Assembly: GCF_006716115.1 (NCBI RefSeq)
Contig: NZ_VFOO01000001.1
Coordinates: forward strand, 1,674,001-1,738,000
Direction: 5' to 3'
From: Subtercola boreus
GTDB taxonomy: Bacteria; Actinomycetota; Actinomycetes; Actinomycetales; Microbacteriaceae
Length of the DNA: 64,000 nucleotides
Of the stretch, positions 42,383 through 51,603 are shown piece by piece. The number at the start of each line of letters is the position of its first letter. Positions within the stretch are counted from its first letter, which is position 1. The notes below the pieces were generated by a model, which saw nothing but the letters and a program-made list of their open reading frames with translations, had not been told where the DNA came from and did no database searches. The position numbers were made by a program, and so were the translations under genes.

Positions 42383-45300
42383 CTACTCTCTGCCGGTGAG
42401 GCCCCACGCGTCTTCATCCGTGTCGCCCTCCACTTCAGGATAGCCGGGGCCCGGCTCCGCGAGAGGATCGCTGTAGTCCATCTGGTCGGTGCCGTAACCG
42501 GCCGCGGGCGACAGTCCGGCCGCGGGAGCGCCCTGCGACGGCTGTGACGGGCCAGCTGGCGATGAGGGTGCCGCAGCGGCATCCGACCCGCGGAGCATCG
42601 CCAGCACCTCAGGCAGCTGGTCGGCGGTCACCAACACATCGCGGGCCTTCGAACCCTCGGATGGGCCGACGATCTCGCGCGATTCGAGCAGGTCCATCAG
42701 GCGTCCGGCCTTCGCGAAGCCGACCTTCAGTTTGCGCTGCAGCATCGAGGTCGAACCGAACTGCGTGTTGACGACCAGCTCGGCCGCCTGCAGCAGCACT
42801 TCGAGGTCGTCACCGATGTCCGAGTCGATCTGCTTCGAGGCTGCGGCGGCCGTGACATCCTGCCGGTACTCCGGCCTCGCCTGGCGCGTGACGTGCTCGA
42901 CGACCTTGGCGATCTCGGACTCGCTCACCCACGCACCCTGCACACGGATCGACTTCGAGGCGCCCATCGGGAGGAACAGGGCGTCGCCCTGCCCGATCAG
43001 TTTGTCGGCACCGGGCTGGTCAAGAATGACCCGCGAGTCGGTGACGCTCGTGACCGCGAACGCGAGGCGCGACGGCACGTTCGCCTTGATGAGGCCCGTG
43101 ACGACGTCGACGCTCGGGCGCTGGGTGGCCAGCACGAGGTGGATTCCGGATGCCCGTGCCAGCTGGGTGATGCGCACGATCGAATCTTCGACGTCGCGGG
43201 GGGCGACCATCATGAGGTCGGCGAGCTCGTCGACGACGATCAGCAGGTACGGGTAGGGCTTCAGCACGCGGCTGCTGCCGGCGGGGAGCACGAGCTCCTT
43301 GTTGACGACGGCGCGGTTGAAGTCGTCGATGTGACGGAACCCGAAACTCTCGAGGTCGTCGTACCGCATGTCCATCTCCTTCACGACCCAGGCCAGCGCT
43401 TCGGCGGCCTTCTTCGGGTTCGTGATGATGGGCGTGATCAGGTGCGGAACACCCTGGTAGGCGGTGAGCTCGACACGCTTCGGGTCGATGAGCACCATCC
43501 GCACCTCGGCGGGCGTGGCGCGCATCAGGATGCTCGTGACCATGGAGTTCACGAAGCTCGACTTGCCCGAGCCCGTGGAACCGGCGACGAGGAGGTGGGG
43601 CATCTTCGCGAGGTTCGCGATGATGAACTTGCCCTCTACGTCTTTGCCGACGCCGATCGTCATGGGGTGCGTGTCGTTCGTCGCCTTGGCGGAACGGAGC
43701 ACGTCGCCGAGCACCACGATCTCGCGGTCGGTGTTCGGGATCTCGATGCCGATCGCGCTCCGGCCCGGGATGGGCGACAGGATGCGCACCTCGTTGCTCG
43801 CGACCGCGTACGAGAGATTCTTGCTGAGCGCTGTGACGCGCTCGACCTTCACGCCCGGGCCGAGCTCGATCTCGTAGCGGGTGACGGTCGGGCCGCGCGA
43901 GAATCCGGTGACCTTCGCGTCGACCTGGAACTGCGACAGCACGTCGGTGAGCGCCCGGACGATGTCGTCGTTGGCCTGCGAACGGGCCTTCGAGGGTTCG
44001 CCGAGGGCCAGACTGCCGACCGGGGGCAGCGAGTAGTTCAGCGCTTCGAGTTCTTTGACTTCGGCGAGCGGGATGAACGTGTCGTCGGGCGACAAGCCCG
44101 GCAGGGCATCCGGAACCGCGGTCGCCGCCGTGGGGAACGGCTTCGTGGCGGGAACGGCGCCGGCTGCGGCTGCTCCAACGGCACCCGCGGCGCCAGAGGT
44201 CTCGCCGAAGAGCACGCCGGTGAAGGAGGCGCTGTCGCCGGCCGCGTCGTCGCGGATGCCCGTGGCAGACTTCGTGCCGGGGAGCACCTCGCCCGTGAAG
44301 CGCCTGACTGCCTGCTCGGCCGCCTCCATGTCGCCGAGCAGTGCGGCGTCGAAACCGCGGCTCTCGTCGATCGTGCGATCGATCACTTCTGTGGGCGGCG
44401 TGCGGTCTTCGACGTGGATCGGCGCGGGGCCGACCGCGGTGGTCGGGATGATCGGCGAATCGAAGGCCGGATCCTCCTCGCGCCCGCTCTTGTTTCGTCG
44501 CCACCAGGGCAGCGATTCGTCATTCACGTGGTCGAAGTCGAGTTCGAGGTCGCCGGTGTGCTCGACATTCCTGCCGCGACCCGCCCGCGGAACCTTCGGT
44601 TCGCGGTCCTCCCGCGACTCCGGAGCCTCGCCGAAAGCGGCACCGAACAGGTAGGCGTACAGCTCACGAGAACGCGAGGCCAGCTTGTTCGGCGGAGTCT
44701 TCGTGATGATGAAGAGCGAAAGCAGGAGCAGTGCGCAGACCACGATCGTCGCGCCGATGGGCGTGATGATGAGGATGAGCGGGGCGGCGATCACCCAGCC
44801 GAACACTCCGCCGGCTGTGGCGAGCGACTCCATGCCCTCCGCGGGGTACGGCTCGCCGCCGAAGATGTGGCAGAGGCCCGAGACCATGAGGAGCAGGATG
44901 CCGAGACCGATGCCGATGCGGCCGTTGTCGTTGACGGAATTCGGATGCCGGAACAACCAGATCGCAAGGAGAAGCATGACCACGGGCAGGGCGTAGGCCA
45001 CCCGGCCGAAGAGGCCGCCGAACGTGTAGGCGTCGAGCAGGTTCGCCACGGGACTGGCGACGAGGAACCACTCGATCACGGCCCCCGCGACAGCGAGCAG
45101 GAACAGCAGGAACGGGAACCCGTCGCGGCGCTCCTCCTTGGCGAGCTTCTCGTGCCCGAAGGCGCGCGCCGCTCCCCCGACCAGGTGCGCGAGGCCCAGC
45201 CACATCGTGGTGAAGATGCCGGGGCCCTCGCTCTCGACAGGGAACTTCAGCGTCTTCTGCGTGGCGGTGGCCTGCTGTTTCGCCGGAGTCTTCGCGGGCG

Positions 45301-45421
45301 CGCGTCGCCCGCCGTTCGCGCCGCCGCCATTGCCGCCGCCGGCCGCGCCGGCACCGCTCGCGCCGCCTCGCCCGCCTGCCGCGCCGCGCGCGCGGGAGTT
45401 CGCCCTGGTACTCGTAGCCAT
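42383..45421 (-). CDS. ftsK: DNA translocase FtsK/SpoIIIE
   Basis: Division-septum DNA pump. 1012 residues. The first 45 are Arg/Gly/Ala rich; four membrane helices lie between about residues 85 and 240; a linker of about 250 residues; the motor domain has Walker [12 protein letters not shown] and Walker [14 protein letters not shown]; the C-terminal gamma domain ([35 protein letters not shown]) reads KOPS-type sites. The Pro/Ser-rich C terminus ends [10 protein letters not shown]. Downstream are pgsA and cinA. Confidence 0.97.
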
Positions 45422-45486: not shown

Positions 45487-45642
45487 TCATCGGAGCCGCC
45501 TCACAGCCGGCCCCGCAGACGCAACAGGCCCTGCATGCGCCGCCGGGCCGGTGCTGACCCCGCACGTGAGTACGAAAGCGGCGGCTGCCGTCCGCGCCAT
45601 CCGCTCTGCTTGACAGGTGATTGAGGAGGAATAGTCTGACAT
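45487..45642 (-). CDS. short signal-peptide ORF downstream of paralogue A
   Basis: 51 residues from ATG at 45642, preceded by GGGAAGGA, a good ribosome site. MSDYSSSITCQAERMARTAAAAFVLTCGVS... ends AAHAGP followed by about 12 residues. The segment resembles a signal peptide cut after AHA. It shares the M-x-D start, a cysteine near 10, TAAAAF and AAHAGP with the remnant at 47142. It is 41 nt after paralogue A. It may be the leftover start of a decayed paralogue or make a very short exported peptide. Confidence 0.4.
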   Translation of the reverse strand: MSDYSSSITCQAERMARTAAAAFVLTCGVSTGPAAHAGPVASAGPAVRRLR

Positions 45643-45683
45643 CGGCGTCCTTCCCCGAGTTCTCCTAGAAAAGTCGTCGCCGC

Positions 45684-46175
45684 TCAGAGCCCGCCCAACC
45701 TGTTGTAGACCACGTTGTCGATTCCACTGACCCACACTTCAGTCTCTCCGGGGTTGTTCACCATCGTGACCGGGTTGAAGACCAGGGGATGCGCCTCATT
45801 GCTGACGTACCCGTCGACGAGGCAGCGATGTCCTACCTCGGTAAGCGGCAGTTCCACGGCGAAACGCAGAATGGTGGGACTAGACGTGCCCTGCAGCGGG
45901 GTATCGAAGAGTTGCCCGTCGTCGCAGGTGAGTCGGAGATGCACTGCGGCCGGGTCGAGTGTGGATCGGAGGTTCACGACACCCTGGACTGTCGGCCTGC
46001 GGGTGGTGTCAACGGGCTGCGGCACGGTGAAGAGGCTGACTCGCAGGGTGGTGCCTGTCGGGGGCGCTGGGTCTACGGCAGATGCCGTTGCGACACTGCC
46101 TCCCACCACCAGGGCTGTCGACACTGCCCCGACAACACCGAGTTTCAGCAGCATCTTGGATGATTTATTGAACAT
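45684..46175 (-). CDS. secreted two-cysteine GGL paralogue A
   Basis: 163 residues from ATG at 46175 (GGGAGGA eight bases upstream). Signal peptide to about 33 (cleavage near ASA-VD). The mature part has SLFTVPQP near 48, the cysteine motif TCDDG (C84), ELPLTEVGHRCLVDG (C118), and ends NRLGGL. The same plan occurs in three neighbours at 46603, 47429 and 48156: the two cysteines are 32-40 residues apart and probably form a disulfide. No domain recognised. Shared promoter motif at 46203-46234. Confidence 0.75.
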   Translation of the reverse strand: MFNKSSKMLLKLGVVGAVSTALVVGGSVATASAVDPAPPTGTTLRVSLFTVPQPVDTTRRPTVQGVVNLRSTLDPAAVHLRLTCDDGQLFDTPLQGTSSPTILRFAVELPLTEVGHRCLVDGYVSNEAHPLVFNPVTMVNNPGETEVWVSGIDNVVYNRLGGL

Positions 46176-46202
46176 GTGATGGGTCCTCCCGTAGTTGTTC
46201 AT

Positions 46203-46234
46203 AAGAGAGACGTCAAAAACGAGCATCCATTACG
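46203..46234 (-). promoter_or_regulatory. shared two-part promoter motif of paralogue A
   Basis: On the minus strand CGTAATG (complement of 46228-46234), 18 nt, then CTCTCTT (complement of 46203-46209), 28 nt before the start codon. The same pair precedes the other three intact paralogues with a 16-nt spacing. It looks like a -35/-10 pair for an alternative sigma factor. Confidence 0.55.
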
Positions 46235-46270
46235 CGGATTCGACGGAGTTCTTTCGACAGAGACGCCGAG

Positions 46271-46297
46271 GGCCCGCTCGCACTACGCGAGCGGGCC
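46271..46297. terminator. GC hairpin H1 between remnant B and paralogue A
   Basis: GGCCCGCTCGC-ACTAC-GCGAGCGGGCC, a perfect 11-bp stem with a 5-nt loop and no U-tract. It is nearly identical to the hairpin at 46556-46582. Confidence 0.65.
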
Positions 46298-46517
46298 AAG
46301 GGCGATGAGCAGACGAAAACTACGCCTCGATGTCGACCGGCACGATTGCAGATCATCCGGGCCGAGTAGTCGCTCAGCAAGAAGGATGAGCCGGCCCCGC
46401 TGATGAGCCCCTGTACGGGAACCAGATCCGCTCCCCCGTTCTGCGCCGGGGTCTGCACGACGAAGCGAACACTGCGCCCGCGATGCGGCGGTCGGTGGAG
46501 TGGGATCAAGGAGTCAT
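46298..46517 (-). pseudogene. remnant B of a GGL-type secreted paralogue
   Basis: A start with a good ribosome site (GAGAGGA, ATG at 46517) reads only three codons to a stop. In another frame the same stretch encodes RFVVQTPAQNGGADLV...SDYSARMICN, which lines up with FVVPDPGPDDRD...SDFTFSLAC of the paralogue at 47429. There is no room for a signal peptide, the C-terminal half including the second cysteine and GGL is missing, and the CGTAATG promoter half is absent. A decayed copy. Confidence 0.6.
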
Positions 46518-46555
46518 GGGGGTCCTCTCGGTTGTCATACACGAGAGACGCCGAA

Positions 46556-46582
46556 GGCCCGCTCGCAGTACGCGAGCGGGCC
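46556..46582. terminator. GC hairpin H2 after paralogue C
   Basis: GGCCCGCTCGC-AGTAC-GCGAGCGGGCC, a perfect 11-bp stem, 20 nt after the stop codon of paralogue C. Flanks (GACGCCGA before, CCGAACC or AAGGGC after) also resemble those of H1, so the hairpin and its flank were duplicated as a unit. Confidence 0.7.
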
Positions 46583-46602
46583 GAACCCGGCACGGCGCCT
46601 TT

Positions 46603-47112
46603 CTACAGGCCGCCACTCGCACTCTTGACGATCGTCTTCGAAGCGAACTGGAGCCGGGGCTGGTCGCTCTCATCAGGCTTGTTCCACGGCTTCTCGAAAG
46701 TGAGCGCGCGACCTGTCGGTGCAACTCCGTGGATGACACAGGTATGACCTACTTCGGCAATCGGGATCGTGCCGTAGAACTGGGCACCGTCGAGGCGCCC
46801 ATATCGAACATCACCCGGCCAGAACGACGTCCCCTCAACAAGCACAGTGGCGCCGTCGTCACACGTGAAATAGACGCCGTAAGCTGCGATATTGTCGGTG
46901 GTTGACGAAGCCTTGTATTCGCCCAGGAATTCGACCGACCTGGCCCCTGGAAGACTCCCAGAGGGGACGATGAACGACTGGTCGGAGCTCGTCGTCGCGG
47001 TCGGCGCGACGGGGCTGGCTGTAGCCGGTGTTGCACCCGCCAGGCCGAGCCCGATGGTTGCAGCGGCTACGCAGACGACGGCCGCGGTGGTCTTGATGGA
47101 TCGGCGATTCAT
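46603..47112 (-). CDS. secreted two-cysteine GGL paralogue C
   Basis: 169 residues from ATG at 47112. Signal peptide with cleavage near TAS-PV (33). The mature part has DQSFIVPSG near 45, YFTCDDG (C84), TIPIAEVGHTCVIHG (C125), RALTFEKPWNK and ends KSASGGL. It has the same order of elements as paralogues A, D and E. The frame stays open far upstream into remnant sequence, but the start after the promoter motif (47149-47178) is the coherent one. Function unknown; export is inferred from the signal peptide. Confidence 0.78.
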   Translation of the reverse strand: MNRRSIKTTAAVVCVAAATIGLGLAGATPATASPVAPTATTSSDQSFIVPSGSLPGARSVEFLGEYKASSTTDNIAAYGVYFTCDDGATVLVEGTSFWPGDVRYGRLDGAQFYGTIPIAEVGHTCVIHGVAPTGRALTFEKPWNKPDESDQPRLQFASKTIVKSASGGL

Positions 47113-47141
47113 ATCAGAACTTTCTGTAGGGATTGTGTGGT

Positions 47142-47381
47142 CTACAGGAAGAGAGCCCAGAAACACCGATCCATTACGACAGTTCTGCAGAAAACATTGC
47201 CCCGAACGCGCAAAGGGCCCGCCCGCACTACAAGCAGGCACGTGTGCCCCGCTTCGGTCAGCGGCGCGGCCGGTCCGGCGTGCGCCGCGGCGCCGCTGCC
47301 GAGGACCAGCGCCAGGAAGGCGGCGGCAGCAGTCAACATCTGGCTCGCGCAACGGACGGTTCGGCGATTGTTGTCTGGCAT
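47142..47381 (-). pseudogene. internally deleted paralogue remnant with run-on end
   Basis: 79 codons from ATG at 47381, 47 nt after the paralogue at 47429 ends. A signal peptide (MPDNNRRTVRCASQM...AAHAGP) is joined directly to PLTEAGHTCLLV, the second-cysteine motif of the family, so about 75 codons are missing. The frame then runs through a degenerate copy of the GC hairpin (GGCCCGCCCGCACTAC at about 47216-47231) and through paralogue C's promoter motif before reaching a stop. That strongly suggests decay, not a working gene. Confidence 0.6.
47149..47178 (-). promoter_or_regulatory. shared two-part promoter motif of paralogue C
   Basis: CGTAATG (complement of 47172-47178), exactly 16 nt, CTCTCTT (complement of 47149-47155), 37 nt before the start codon at 47112. 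After the second block the sequence continues CCTGTAGACC, as in the copy at 47952 (CCTGTAACC). Confidence 0.6.
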
Positions 47382-47428
47382 CGGGTCTCTGGCGCGTGAC
47401 TGCTGGGGAACCGGGATCACGCCGGACG

Positions 47429-47908
47429 TCACAGGCCCCCACTGTGCGACGGAGTGACAATCGTTCCGTAGAGGTATGTAGTCTGCTTACCCGATCCGCC
47501 GCTCACGAACGGGGCGGTCCAGATCACTTTCCGGTCGTCATTCGTCACAGCCTCGAAGACGCACGTGTGGCCCACTTCGTCGAGCGCCAGGCGCGCTTCG
47601 AATTCGATCTGCCGGTCGTGCACGAGGAAGGGGTAGACCATGTAGCTCCGTCCTCCGAAGCACGCCAGCGAGAACGTGAAGTCCGATGTGCTGACGCCCG
47701 GCCTGCGGCCGAAGTCGAAAGATCCTTTGAGCCGTGCGAAATCGCGATCATCGGGGCCGGGGTCCGGAACGACGAACGTCGCGATCGACTCCGTTCCTGA
47801 GACGGGAGGGGCGTCTGGACCGGCAGACGCCGACAACGGAACTCCCGTCGCGACAATCACCAGCCCGAGGATTCCCGAGACGGACAATGACAGGGGCTTG
47901 CGGGACAT
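47429..47908 (-). CDS. secreted two-cysteine GGL paralogue D
   Basis: 159 residues from ATG at 47908. Signal peptide (MSRKPLSLSVSGILGLVIVATGVPLSASAG). Mature part: TESIATFVVPDPGPDDRD, SDFTFSLACFGG (C83; CFGG replaces the CDDG of the others), LALDEVGHTCVFEA (C116), KVIWTAPFVSGG, end SHSGGL. No strong ribosome site just upstream of the ATG. Promoter motif at 47952-47981. The most divergent intact member. Confidence 0.77.
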   Translation of the reverse strand: MSRKPLSLSVSGILGLVIVATGVPLSASAGPDAPPVSGTESIATFVVPDPGPDDRDFARLKGSFDFGRRPGVSTSDFTFSLACFGGRSYMVYPFLVHDRQIEFEARLALDEVGHTCVFEAVTNDDRKVIWTAPFVSGGSGKQTTYLYGTIVTPSHSGGL

Positions 47909-47951
47909 GGCACATCCATTCTGAGGTGATGACTGAATCGTCGGTTACAGG

Positions 47952-47981
47952 AAGAGAGTCGACTTCGCCCCTTTCATTACG
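47952..47981 (-). promoter_or_regulatory. shared two-part promoter motif of paralogue D
   Basis: CGTAATG (complement of 47975-47981), 16 nt, CTCTCTT (complement of 47952-47958), 44 nt before the start codon. Unlike the other copies, the three bases after CGTAATG are AAA instead of GAT. Confidence 0.58.
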
Positions 47982-48077
47982 CGAGTTTTCTCCCAGCTAC
48001 GCCAGCCCGCCCGACTTTCCGAGAATTGCTAACGGCTGTTCCCTTTCGCCGCGCGGAGGAATACCTCCGAACGCAAA

Positions 48078-48108
48078 GGGCCCGCCCCGCGCTAAGCGAA
48101 GCGGGCCC
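48078..48108. terminator. GC hairpin H4 after paralogue E
   Basis: GGGCCCGCCCCGC-GCTAA-GCGAAGCGGGCCC, 13-bp stem with two central mismatches, about 48 nt after the stop of paralogue E. Same core GGCCCGC/GCGGGCC as H1, H2 and the hairpin behind rnj. Confidence 0.6.
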
Positions 48109-48155
48109 CCAGGGTCGGCAGTGGACAGCTCGGCGTTCTCAGCTGCAGCTCTTGC

Positions 48156-48716
48156 TCACAGCCCGCCCGTGCTGCTGACCGGTATAACGCCCGCACCGAA
48201 ATCGAGGGCGCTGGTCATCACGTCGGAGTTCGTGCTCGCAAGATAGTCATCCAGTTTTGGAGCCCCGAAGACGAGCGAGCGTCCTGCGGGGGAAGTCCCG
48301 TGAATAGTGCAGATCTTCCCCTGCTCGGAAACAGGAATGGCCCCGCCGAACCACACACCATGAAGACCCTGAGTGTCGTAACTGACGCTCACAGGCACGA
48401 CCAGTCCGTCATCACAGGTCATTGACACCCCGTAGGACCTGGAACTGTCCTCGGGGAGCCACAACAGGTTGACAATGCCGAATATCTTGAGCGGTTCGTC
48501 CGGATTGATGTAATCGCTGGGAACCACGAACGACTGGTTGGGCGAAGTGGTGACCGGCGGGGCCGTCGGTGCAGGCTCGGGGGCCTGGGGGCCCGGCTGG
48601 GGGAACGGCACGTGAACCGGGTGGGCAGAAGCCATCGATGCTCCCGAGAAGACGAGAGAGGCTGTCGCAGCGGCAATGAGACCCGCTGTCGCGAGCCGCC
48701 TGAATCTGTGGGTCAT
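48156..48716 (-). CDS. secreted two-cysteine GGL paralogue E
   Basis: 186 residues from ATG at 48716 (AGAAGGA upstream). Signal peptide with cleavage near MAS-AH (31), then a 28-residue Pro-rich linker (VPFPQPGPQAPEPAP) lacking in the others. Core: NQSFVVPSDY, SMTCDDG (C101), AIPVSEQGKICTIHG (C136), RSLVFGAPK and end SSTGGL. First gene of the array after rnj. It is closest to paralogue C (SFVVPS, CDDG, ICTIHG, AGRSLVF). Confidence 0.78.
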   Translation of the reverse strand: MTHRFRRLATAGLIAAATASLVFSGASMASAHPVHVPFPQPGPQAPEPAPTAPPVTTSPNQSFVVPSDYINPDEPLKIFGIVNLLWLPEDSSRSYGVSMTCDDGLVVPVSVSYDTQGLHGVWFGGAIPVSEQGKICTIHGTSPAGRSLVFGAPKLDDYLASTNSDVMTSALDFGAGVIPVSSTGGL

Positions 48717-48757
48717 GGAAATTTCCTTCTGTTGATGTACAAAGGCGTGGTCATCAG

Positions 48758-48787
48758 AAGAGAGTCGAGAGAGCAGGATCCATTACG
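48758..48787 (-). promoter_or_regulatory. shared two-part promoter motif of paralogue E
   Basis: CGTAATG (complement of 48781-48787), 16 nt, CTCTCTT (complement of 48758-48764), 42 nt before the start codon. GGATC follows CGTAAT as in paralogue C. Confidence 0.6.
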
Positions 48788-48898: not shown

Positions 48899-50575
48899 CT
48901 ACGCCTCGATGACGACCGGCACGATCATCGGGCGGCGACGGAGCGAGGTGTTGACCCAGCGGCCGGCCGTGCGACGCACGACCTGCTGCAGGGCGTGCGT
49001 GTCGCGGGTGCCGTTGCCGACGGCCTCGGCGAGGGCCGCAGCGATCTTCGGCTTGACCTTGTCGAAGACCGAGTCGTCTTCGGCGAATCCCTTGGCGTGG
49101 ATCTCGGGACCGACCACGATGCGGCCGGTACCCGCCTCGATGACGACGATGACCGAGATGAAGCCCTCCTCGCTGAGCACGAGGCGGTCCTTCAGGTCGT
49201 CGTCTGTGACCTCGCCGACGGTCTGGCCGTCGACGTACACGAAGCCGAGGTCGTACTGGCCCACAACCGTCGCGATACCGTCGCGCAGGTCGACGACGGT
49301 GCCGTCGTCGGCGAGGATTGTGTTGCGCGCCGGGACGCCGGTCTCGATGGCGAGCTGGGCGTTCGCCACGAGGTGACGGTACTCACCGTGCACCGGCATC
49401 ACGTTCTTCGGCTTCAGGATGTTGTAGCAGTACAGCAGCTCACCGGCCGCGGCGTGACCGGAGACGTGCACCTTGGCGTTGCCCTTGTGCACGACGGTCG
49501 CACCGAGCTTGGTCAGGCCGTTGATCACGCGGTAAACCGCGTTCTCGTTGCCGGGGATGAGCGAGGAGGCGAGGATGACCGTGTCACCCGGCCCGACCTC
49601 GATCTGGTGTTCGAGGTTGGCCATGCGCGAGAGCACGGCCATCGGCTCACCCTGCGAACCGGTCGACATGTAGACGATCTTGTCGTCGGGGATGTCGTTC
49701 GCCTTCTTGAAGTCGACGAGCACGCCGTCAGGGACCTTGAGGTAGCCGAGTTCTTCGGCGATGCCCATGTTCCGCACCATGGAGCGGCCGAGCAACGCCA
49801 CGCGGCGCCCATTGGCGTGTGCGGCATCCAGAACCTGCTGCACGCGGTGCACGTGCGACGAGAAGCTCGCGACGATGACCCGGCGCGGCGCCTTCGCGAT
49901 GACGCTTTCGAGCACGGGGCCGATGGTGCGCTCCGAGGGCGTGAAGCCGGGTACGTCGGCGTTGGTCGAGTCGACGAGGAACAGGTCGACGCCGGCCTCG
50001 CCGAGCCGCGCGAAGGCACGGAGGTCGGTGATGCGGTTGTCGAGCGGGAGCTGGTCCATCTTGAAGTCGCCGGTGTGCAGCACGACTCCGGCCACCGTCT
50101 TGATGGCGACGGCCAGGGCATCCGGGATCGAGTGGTTCACGGCCACGAATTCGAGTTCGAAGGGCCCCATCTTCTCGATCTGGCCCTCTTCGACCTGGAA
50201 GGTGTACGGCTTGATGCGGTGCTCTTTGAGCTTCGCCTCGACGAGGGCGAGCGTCAGGCCCGATCCGATCAGGGGGATGTCGTTCTTGAGGCGCAGCAGG
50301 TAGGGAACCGCTCCGATGTGGTCTTCGTGACCGTGGGTGAGCACGATGCCGACCACGTCGTGCAGGCGGTTCTTGACGAGCGAGAAGTCGGGCAGGATCA
50401 GGTCGACGCCGGGCTGGGTCTCTTCGGGGAAGAGCACTCCGCAGTCGACGATCAGCAGCTTGCCGTTGATCTCGAAGACGGTCATGTTGCGGCCGATCTC
50501 GCCGAGGCCGCCGATCGGGATGACCCGCAGGGTGTCCTTCTCAAGGGGACGGGGTTCGTATGACGTGTTGGGCAT
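48899..50575 (-). CDS. rnj: ribonuclease J
   Basis: Beta-CASP metallo-beta-lactamase RNase with 5'-3' exo and endo activity in mRNA decay and rRNA maturation. 558 residues from ATG at 50575 with AGGAGGG upstream. Zinc motif HGHEDHIG near 83, further metal ligands in HTGDFKMDQ and PVHGEYRHL; the RNase J C-terminal domain ends RRPMIVPVVIEA. Upstream dapA is 44 nt away, a common actinobacterial pair. Confidence 0.97.
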   Translation of the reverse strand: MPNTSYEPRPLEKDTLRVIPIGGLGEIGRNMTVFEINGKLLIVDCGVLFPEETQPGVDLILPDFSLVKNRLHDVVGIVLTHGHEDHIGAVPYLLRLKNDIPLIGSGLTLALVEAKLKEHRIKPYTFQVEEGQIEKMGPFELEFVAVNHSIPDALAVAIKTVAGVVLHTGDFKMDQLPLDNRITDLRAFARLGEAGVDLFLVDSTNADVPGFTPSERTIGPVLESVIAKAPRRVIVASFSSHVHRVQQVLDAAHANGRRVALLGRSMVRNMGIAEELGYLKVPDGVLVDFKKANDIPDDKIVYMSTGSQGEPMAVLSRMANLEHQIEVGPGDTVILASSLIPGNENAVYRVINGLTKLGATVVHKGNAKVHVSGHAAAGELLYCYNILKPKNVMPVHGEYRHLVANAQLAIETGVPARNTILADDGTVVDLRDGIATVVGQYDLGFVYVDGQTVGEVTDDDLKDRLVLSEEGFISVIVVIEAGTGRIVVGPEIHAKGFAEDDSVFDKVKPKIAAALAEAVGNGTRDTHALQQVVRRTAGRWVNTSLRRRPMIVPVVIEA

Positions 50576-50619
50576 ATGCCCTCCTAAAGTGTGTGTTGAG
50601 TTGTGAGAAGCGCCGCGTT

Positions 50620-51603
50620 CTAGCGGGTCGTGCCAGGAATCTTGGGCAGCGCGCCACCGGCGGCTGCGTTTCTGTCGGGTCGGAAGTTGGTGAAGCTGAC
50701 CCCGGGGATGCTCCGCACGAGGTCGATCTCGTCTTCGATCTTCGCGGCCTCCCACTCTTCGGGGCCGACGAGCGGGAGCCGCACGCGCGGGCTCGAGATG
50801 CGGCCGAGGCCGTGCAGGATGTACTTCACCGCGACCGTGCCGGGCACGTGCGTCATCGTCGCCCGTACGAGCGGCTCGAGCGCCTGGTGCATCTTCGTGG
50901 CCGTGGTGAGGTCGCCCGCGTTCACGGCATCGATCATGATGCGGTACGGCCGGGCCGCGATGTTGTTGGTCACGCCGATGAGGCCCGTCGCGCCGATCGA
51001 GAGCGCAGGCAGCACGTTGGAGTCGTCGCCCGAAAAGTACATCAGGTCGGTCTGGTTCAACACCCGGCTGACCTCGCTGAAGTCGCCCTTCGCGTCTTTG
51101 ATGGCAAGGATGTTGGGGTGCTTCGCCGCGCGCAGGATGGTGTCGTACGTGATGGGGATGCCCGTACGCCCGGGGATGTCGTACAGGATGACCGGCAGAT
51201 CGGTCGCGTCCGCGATCATCCGGAAGTGCGTCAGCACACCTGCAGGGGTGGGCTTGTTATAGTACGGAGTGACGACGAGGTTGCCGTCGGCGCCGGCCTT
51301 CTCGCTCTGTTTGGCGAGCTGCATGGCGTGCGCGGTCTCGTTCGAGCCACCGCCTGTGATGATCTTGGCGCGGCCGTCGGCCACCGACTTGCCGACCTCG
51401 ACGAGCCGGACCTTCTCAGCGTCGGTGAGGGTGGATGTCTCACCCGTCGTGCCCGTGACGACGATGCCGTCGGCACCATCGGTGATCACGGTGTCGATGT
51501 GCTTCTCGACGCTGGCCCAGTCGACTTCGCCGTCGGCGGTGAACGGGGTGACCAGGGCGACGAGCACCTGGCCGAACGGGTTCTCGGGGTTCGTTGCAGC
51601 CAC
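50620..51603 (-). CDS. dapA: 4-hydroxy-tetrahydrodipicolinate synthase
   Basis: First committed step of diaminopimelate/lysine synthesis: condenses pyruvate and aspartate semialdehyde. 327 residues, about 30 more than E. coli because of a Pro/Asn/Arg tail. TIM-barrel marks: GTTGETSTL, VTPYYNKP with the catalytic tyrosine, YDIPGRTG, and the Schiff-base lysine in LAIKDAKGD near 175. GTG start. Confidence 0.97.
   Translation of the reverse strand: MAATNPENPFGQVLVALVTPFTADGEVDWASVEKHIDTVITDGADGIVVTGTTGETSTLTDAEKVRLVEVGKSVADGRAKIITGGGSNETAHAMQLAKQSEKAGADGNLVVTPYYNKPTPAGVLTHFRMIADATDLPVILYDIPGRTGIPITYDTILRAAKHPNILAIKDAKGDFSEVSRVLNQTDLMYFSGDDSNVLPALSIGATGLIGVTNNIAARPYRIMIDAVNAGDLTTATKMHQALEPLVRATMTHVPGTVAVKYILHGLGRISSPRVRLPLVGPEEWEAAKIEDEIDLVRSIPGVSFTNFRPDRNAAAGGALPKIPGTTR

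Follow-up and report, generated by a model that had tools for sequence, protein, structure and literature searches.

Between rnj and ftsK in a 64,000-nucleotide stretch of the Subtercola boreus genome (hereafter the window), four intact genes encode exported proteins with two cysteines and a C-terminal Gly-Gly-Leu (GGL). Sequence searches place them in a previously unnamed, Subtercola-specific family whose genes are preceded by a promoter-like element, CGTAAT-N17-nTCTCT. This shared promoter and the regulon that it appears to define, both unseen in the original prediction made from the window, are the best clue to function. We tentatively read the array genes as tandem paralogues of old origin, in a family confined to Subtercola whose exported products would each consist of one beta-sandwich domain; nearly all copies would be transcribed from their own promoter within a genus-specific extracellular-protein regulon. 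Export, co-regulation, constraint and turnover of the family are supported by sequence evidence.

A family of exported two-cysteine proteins

The open reading frames (ORFs) bore out the four predicted genes and their starts between ftsK and rnj, all on the minus strand. Listed in the direction of transcription, with evidence from ORFs, a hidden Markov model (HMM), AlphaFold models with their predicted local distance difference test score (pLDDT) and a pattern search, the intact features are:

48899..50755 (-): rnj (RNase J), conserved anchor upstream of the array in transcription order
48759..48787 (-): promoter-like element of gene 4, CGTAAT-N17-CTCTCT (pattern search)
48156..48716 (-): family gene 4, start 48716, 186 aa, C-terminus SSTGGL (ORF)
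47953..47981 (-): promoter-like element of gene 3, CGTAAT-N17-CTCTCT (pattern search)
47429..47908 (-): family gene 3, 159 aa, CFGG variant, C-terminus SHSGGL (ORF; AlphaFold model, mature part, pLDDT 90)
47150..47178 (-): promoter-like element of gene 2, CGTAAT-N17-CTCTCT (pattern search)
46603..47112 (-): family gene 2, start 47112, 169 aa, C-terminus SASGGL (ORF, AlphaFold model)
46206..46234 (-): promoter-like element of gene 1, CGTAAT-N17-GTCTCT (pattern search; in the window genome, G000:C1:1720206-1720234)
45684..46175 (-): family gene 1, start 46175, 163 aa, C-terminus NRLGGL (ORF, HMM match)
42383..45421 (-): ftsK, conserved anchor downstream of the array in transcription order

All four proteins carry a signal peptide with an AxA-type end site, F[IVT]VP in the first strand and a second cysteine in G[HK]xC, 33–41 residues after the first, and all end on GGL. 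The first cysteine lies in CDDG in three of the four and in CFGG in the protein starting at 47908. The order of elements described originally (signal peptide, VP strand, CDDG or CFGG, GGL) therefore stands. Pairwise identity among the window paralogues is about 20–40%.

Searching with an HMM of the four proteins found members in 10 of the 12 Subtercola genomes; the family numbers at least 31, including solitary copies outside the array. Mean column identity in the alignment is 27%, yet both cysteines are present in 32 of 32 members, and because of this invariance each protein probably forms one disulfide bond. The tail is kept in distant members as well (first glycine 31/31, second 30/32, leucine 26/31, against a median entropy of 2.8 bits over all alignment columns), and judged by the alignment the two-cysteine/GGL pattern is not a product of chance. 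The tripeptide, identical in the four window proteins as predicted, is not so throughout the family: in some members it is followed by a single further residue, and it is missing from the first array copy of G011 (SAE), from G001 (TPY), from G004 (GGQY) and from a dispersed subgroup. The latter (L104 in G008, L106 in G009, L108 in G005) has the promoter element and ends in VAR or VVT; its G008 copy, L104, is apparently frame-shifted.

Full-length matches to the 31-member profile in 400 Microbacteriaceae genomes were confined to Subtercola; matches outside the genus covered essentially the signal-peptide region (about positions 1–66, few further, one with a stop) and were rejected. A profile of the mature domain, run against 395 genomes of the class, found the window genome only, plus one weak match with two stops that was taken as chance. 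About ten candidates per genome were scored in these two scans, from which very distant relatives could escape; a profile search of 60 relatives, with all candidates scored in almost all genomes, likewise gave no member outside the genus. In named genomes, the closest subfamily occurred in Subtercola records only (S. boreus strains and Subtercola sp. Z020). None of the 31 members reached a curated cut-off in Pfam or NCBIfam, no match to the family was found in PHROGs, PADLOC, PDB sequences or phage and plasmid records, and the Ig-like models (Big, He_PIG, cadherin) gave no profile match. The description of exported, diversified paralogues outside any named family is upheld by these searches, and neither the family nor the promoter motif was found in the papers searched. 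A candidate divergent member at L182 stayed unconfirmed, with a profile comparison probability of 19%.

The promoter-like element and its regulon

The element lies upstream of array and dispersed family genes alike, mostly 27–47 nt before the start codon. It is present at all six intact family copies of the window genome; genus-wide, 20 of 30 copies have the exact and 25 of 30 the relaxed form, the 30 being the HMM-scored copies, including one frame-shifted pseudogene. Among the five copies that lack it, two run a few bases into the gene before them, another carries a version altered at one base, the fourth is the pseudogene and the fifth is unexplained. The exact element matched 75 times in the 12 Subtercola genomes and the reversed pattern not once. 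The spacing is 17 at every exact site, and columns outside the query are conserved too, with TTTnnnnAAG before the element and GGAT after it. In 147 other Microbacteriaceae genomes the element is near chance level, bar one convincing site in another genus.

By its sequence the element resembles the target of an alternative sigma factor of the extracytoplasmic function (ECF) type, with −35 and −10 boxes at the fixed spacing of 16–17 nt, near the start codon, that marks ECF promoters; we infer from this both that it is a promoter and to which sigma class it belongs. The sigma-BldN regulon, which contains chaplins, offers one comparison: its site is ECF-like with CGTAA at −35, and its targets, chaplins and rodlins, are surface proteins that are secreted and come as several paralogues. 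The BldN site is CGTAAC-N16-CGTTGA (PMC2375139), a pattern that the Subtercola element resembles in its −35 half and departs from in its −10 half (nTCTCT versus CGTTGA; PMC2375139), and the Subtercola family has other sequences, in predicted beta-sandwich domains some 130 aa long. No BldN orthologue was identified, the 15 sigma loci of the window genome having been listed without assignment to ECF groups. Sigma-E promoters of S. coelicolor have conserved AAC and TC with a 16–17 bp spacer (PMC6767563). They resemble the element in geometry (AAC/AAT, 18 nt, TC) and in having envelope or extracellular targets, but the Subtercola targets are mostly extracellular Ig and propeller proteins together with the present family, and the motif is essentially restricted to the genus. 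An autoregulated sigma factor was rejected as the regulator, the element preceding no sigma gene of the window genome, as was a hairpin in the 5' untranslated region as a common feature (35 of 65 sites below shuffled).

Outside the family, element sites precede genes for exported proteins: GH15 glucoamylase carrying a glucodextranase N domain, Ig-domain-bearing PD40 propellers, proteins of Big_9/cadherin-like and He_PIG type, YVTN propellers and small proteins that contain cysteine. A second small exported cysteine family (QGAI.C...G.CHGYGSSGG...DPWVANLFY) lies under the same promoter element at L154 and L181. A 52-aa exported peptide with the same promoter type was found at G000:C1:3084785 (-), L241, and in G007 (L161), just upstream of a gene for a metallo-beta-lactamase-fold protein; its predicted mature part of about 18–19 residues contains two cysteines (FSCGQHVGQSPLCIPQKR).

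A candidate small RNA directly follows the element at G000:C1:3658690 (+), about positions 691–805 of locus L145. The site occurs in 9 of the 12 Subtercola species (orthologues at L148, L150, L156, L159, L160, L165, L169 and L179) and in one genome of another genus (L199), with no coding start. The candidate is about 85 nt long, has two hairpins in which seven base pairs show compensatory changes, carries a conserved CCCCC loop, which could pair with Shine-Dalgarno sequences, and is unrecognised by Rfam. A sterol-carrier-like gene lies downstream of it in G008.

Co-regulation with a secreted glucoamylase also bears on a quite unlikely alternative, in which the family proteins would be secreted inhibitors blocking hydrolases of competitors, predators or the cell itself, with faces that track the target enzymes. 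Tendamistat and SSI are Streptomyces secreted inhibitors, and both are small, exported, disulfide-containing beta proteins. The family proteins are likewise small and exported, with a predicted beta fold and a probable disulfide, and are, in addition, paralogous and subject to copy turnover. It differs from tendamistat and SSI in lacking any sequence or fold match and in having a single cysteine pair; moreover, it matches no inhibitor family in sequence or fold, no variable reactive-loop hot spot was established and purifying selection dominates among orthologues.

Growth and decay of the array

The space between the array genes holds promoters, hairpins and decayed copies only, with no other intact gene and no element recognised by Rfam. 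Beyond the four genes predicted originally, the span contains one clear decayed copy, one internally deleted copy and one doubtful remnant:

47238..47381 (-): copy with an internal deletion that joins its signal peptide to LTEAGHTC (tblastn against the G007 signal-peptide region, E 2e-6)
46544..46582 (-): hairpin GGCCCGCTCGCGTACTGCGAGCGGGCC, located upstream of the decayed copy and overlapping a variant promoter element (95% repeat)
46348..46517 (-): decayed copy of the AQNGG subfamily, with an in-frame stop, an internal deletion and the 3' half gone
46320..46346 (-): rnj 3'-end scar that follows the decayed copy, 27 nt, 96% identity to the rnj end
46259..46297 (-): second hairpin and promoter-element copy like that at 46544..46582, with no gene directly after it (95% repeat)
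45487..45642 (-): possible signal-peptide-only remnant, doubtful (weak, tblastn E 0.004)

The arrangement of hairpin and promoter element at 46544–46582 is also found in G007, G008 and G011. The strong hairpin (GGCCCGCTCGCGTAnTGCGAGCGGGCC) at this site and at 46259–46297, seen likewise at L092, L095 and L096, holds a −35-like box within its loop and stem, so that the next gene's promoter element overlaps with a hairpin resembling a terminator.

The order rnj-array-ftsK, in the direction of transcription, is conserved in Subtercola, and this syntenic site holds zero to five intact copies together with decayed ones and scars of the rnj 3' end. G009 has five array copies, the window four, G005, G010 and G011 three each, and G002, G004, G007 and G008 one each; the G005 locus is split between contigs and that of G001 could not be joined. 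G003 and G006 have none, their rnj-ftsK gap being about 85 bp. These two are sisters nested within the genus in a midpoint-rooted rnj+ftsK tree, which suggests that the family was lost in their clade. The window species and its near relative G008 are 95–97% identical in the flanking genes and have no intact array gene in common: the sole array gene of G008 survives in the window only as the decayed copy at 46348–46517 (79–83% DNA identity to the same-site G008 gene; HMM E 4e-6). In G009 (L094), a decayed rnj 3' end of 129 nt precedes the second gene, within a 330-nt repeat of 85% identity. Such rnj-end copies in the window and in G009 point to a duplicating unit that took in the end of rnj, the promoter and the gene. 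Read in this way, the array is one of growth and decay with rapid copy turnover.

The copies had been called old or fast-evolving. An old origin agrees with our data, whereas adaptively fast evolution does not: ortholog pairs have a ratio of non-synonymous to synonymous substitution rates (dN/dS) of 0.13–0.33, which supports purifying selection on orthologues and leaves positive selection unsupported. Fast turnover of copies between closely related species (G000 versus G008), together with tandem, diversified and exported paralogues, is what an arsenal of bacteriocin-like toxins against related bacteria would give, but no cognate immunity gene lies beside any copy of the window array, no toxin family was matched and dN/dS is low; we regard such antagonism as highly improbable. 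The proteins might instead be ordinary orphan secreted proteins with no dedicated system, a cell-surface filler kept by drift and duplication. This distinctly unlikely reading fits the restriction to one genus, the variable copy number and the family not being found in the G003/G006 clade, while purifying selection, a promoter at nearly every copy and the fixed cysteines and tail argue for a selected function.

Predicted fold, C-terminal tail and proposed function

AlphaFold models of two divergent window proteins (mean pLDDT 78.6, and 90.0 for the mature domain alone) are both all-beta with nine strands. The strand order is the same in both: the VP strand, B, C ending at the first cysteine, C' and E, followed by a short helix at SExGH, F carrying the second cysteine and two to three more strands. 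GGL forms a low-confidence tail after the last strand in each model. The two proteins thus share a predicted fold with the tripeptide at the same place, rather than having different folds with GGL at unrelated positions. Bacterial Ig-like modules (Big_9, cadherin-like, He_PIG) are exported beta-sandwiches, as the family proteins are predicted to be, and occur in the larger regulon proteins; the family differs from them in having no Pfam match, in standing alone as a single domain and in its own cysteine pair and GGL tail.

The tail lacks the hydrophobic segment and basic end of LPXTG or GlyGly-CTERM-type signals, GGL being terminal or one residue from the end. A role as a general sorting signal is disfavoured: TGGL followed by a stop elsewhere in the genome ends no real gene, and no non-family gene ending in TGGL was found. 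Instead of engaging a structural partner, GGL might be read by envelope machinery, such as a PDZ-type protease, an attachment enzyme or an export or assembly factor, the proteins being substrates anchored or trimmed after export. The two glycines are among the most conserved positions though outside the folded core, and GGL usually stands at the exact end or one residue away. Since the window genome has no other gene found to end in TGGL, a general signal is improbable; some members also end otherwise, without a hydrophobic or basic sorting tail, and we consider this explanation unlikely.

As the best overall explanation, possible though somewhat short of an even chance, we propose co-regulated, exported beta-sandwich modules with a GGL docking tail. 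The family proteins would work extracellularly as small modules for binding or coating, beside the regulon's larger Ig-like, cadherin-like and beta-propeller proteins. Variable exposed faces would suit each of them to its own ligands or partners, and the Gly-Gly-Leu tail, flexible and conserved, would serve as a common docking or processing peptide. We infer this binding or coat role and the function of the tail, and favour surface or extracellular binding over antagonism because of the co-regulation with surface Ig and propeller proteins and the glucoamylase and because immunity partners are lacking. A broader proposal, which we hold to be rather unlikely, is a genus-specific extracytoplasmic programme in which one alternative sigma factor directs the family, docking through its common tail, the surface proteins, the two-cysteine peptides and the small RNA to build or remodel an undescribed extracellular layer.

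Several observations weigh against binding or coat modules of this kind. No wall anchor, lipobox or carbohydrate-binding homology was found in the family proteins, and the tail might just as well serve folding or solubility. Foldseek against PDB and viral structures gave no confident relative (best E about 0.01–0.06, template-modelling score (TM) 0.3–0.45); its weak matches were FnIII/Ig-type or unnamed proteins, the FnIII/Ig chains at E ≥ 0.02 and TM ≤ 0.4, and even an Ig-like label for the modelled fold is weak. The element could not be linked to any sigma factor, the 15 sigma-70 region 2 loci of the window genome lacking an autoregulatory site. Finally, the family is dispensable, since two species without it keep the regulon.

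There are precedents for lineage-specific arrays of secreted paralogues controlled by an alternative sigma factor. In Subtercola, a psychrophilic genus of cold soils, a set of exported proteins can be predicted from a short DNA signature, which turns an orphan array into a testable regulon. That regulon includes a family for which no relatives are known, with a terminal tripeptide that is conserved outside the folded domain, and a candidate small RNA that has the same promoter. The array may serve as a model for how genus-specific secreted families originate, spread by tandem duplication with a piece of a neighbouring gene, and decay, and the way in which Subtercola builds its cell surface would be revealed by identifying the sigma factor and the tail's partner.

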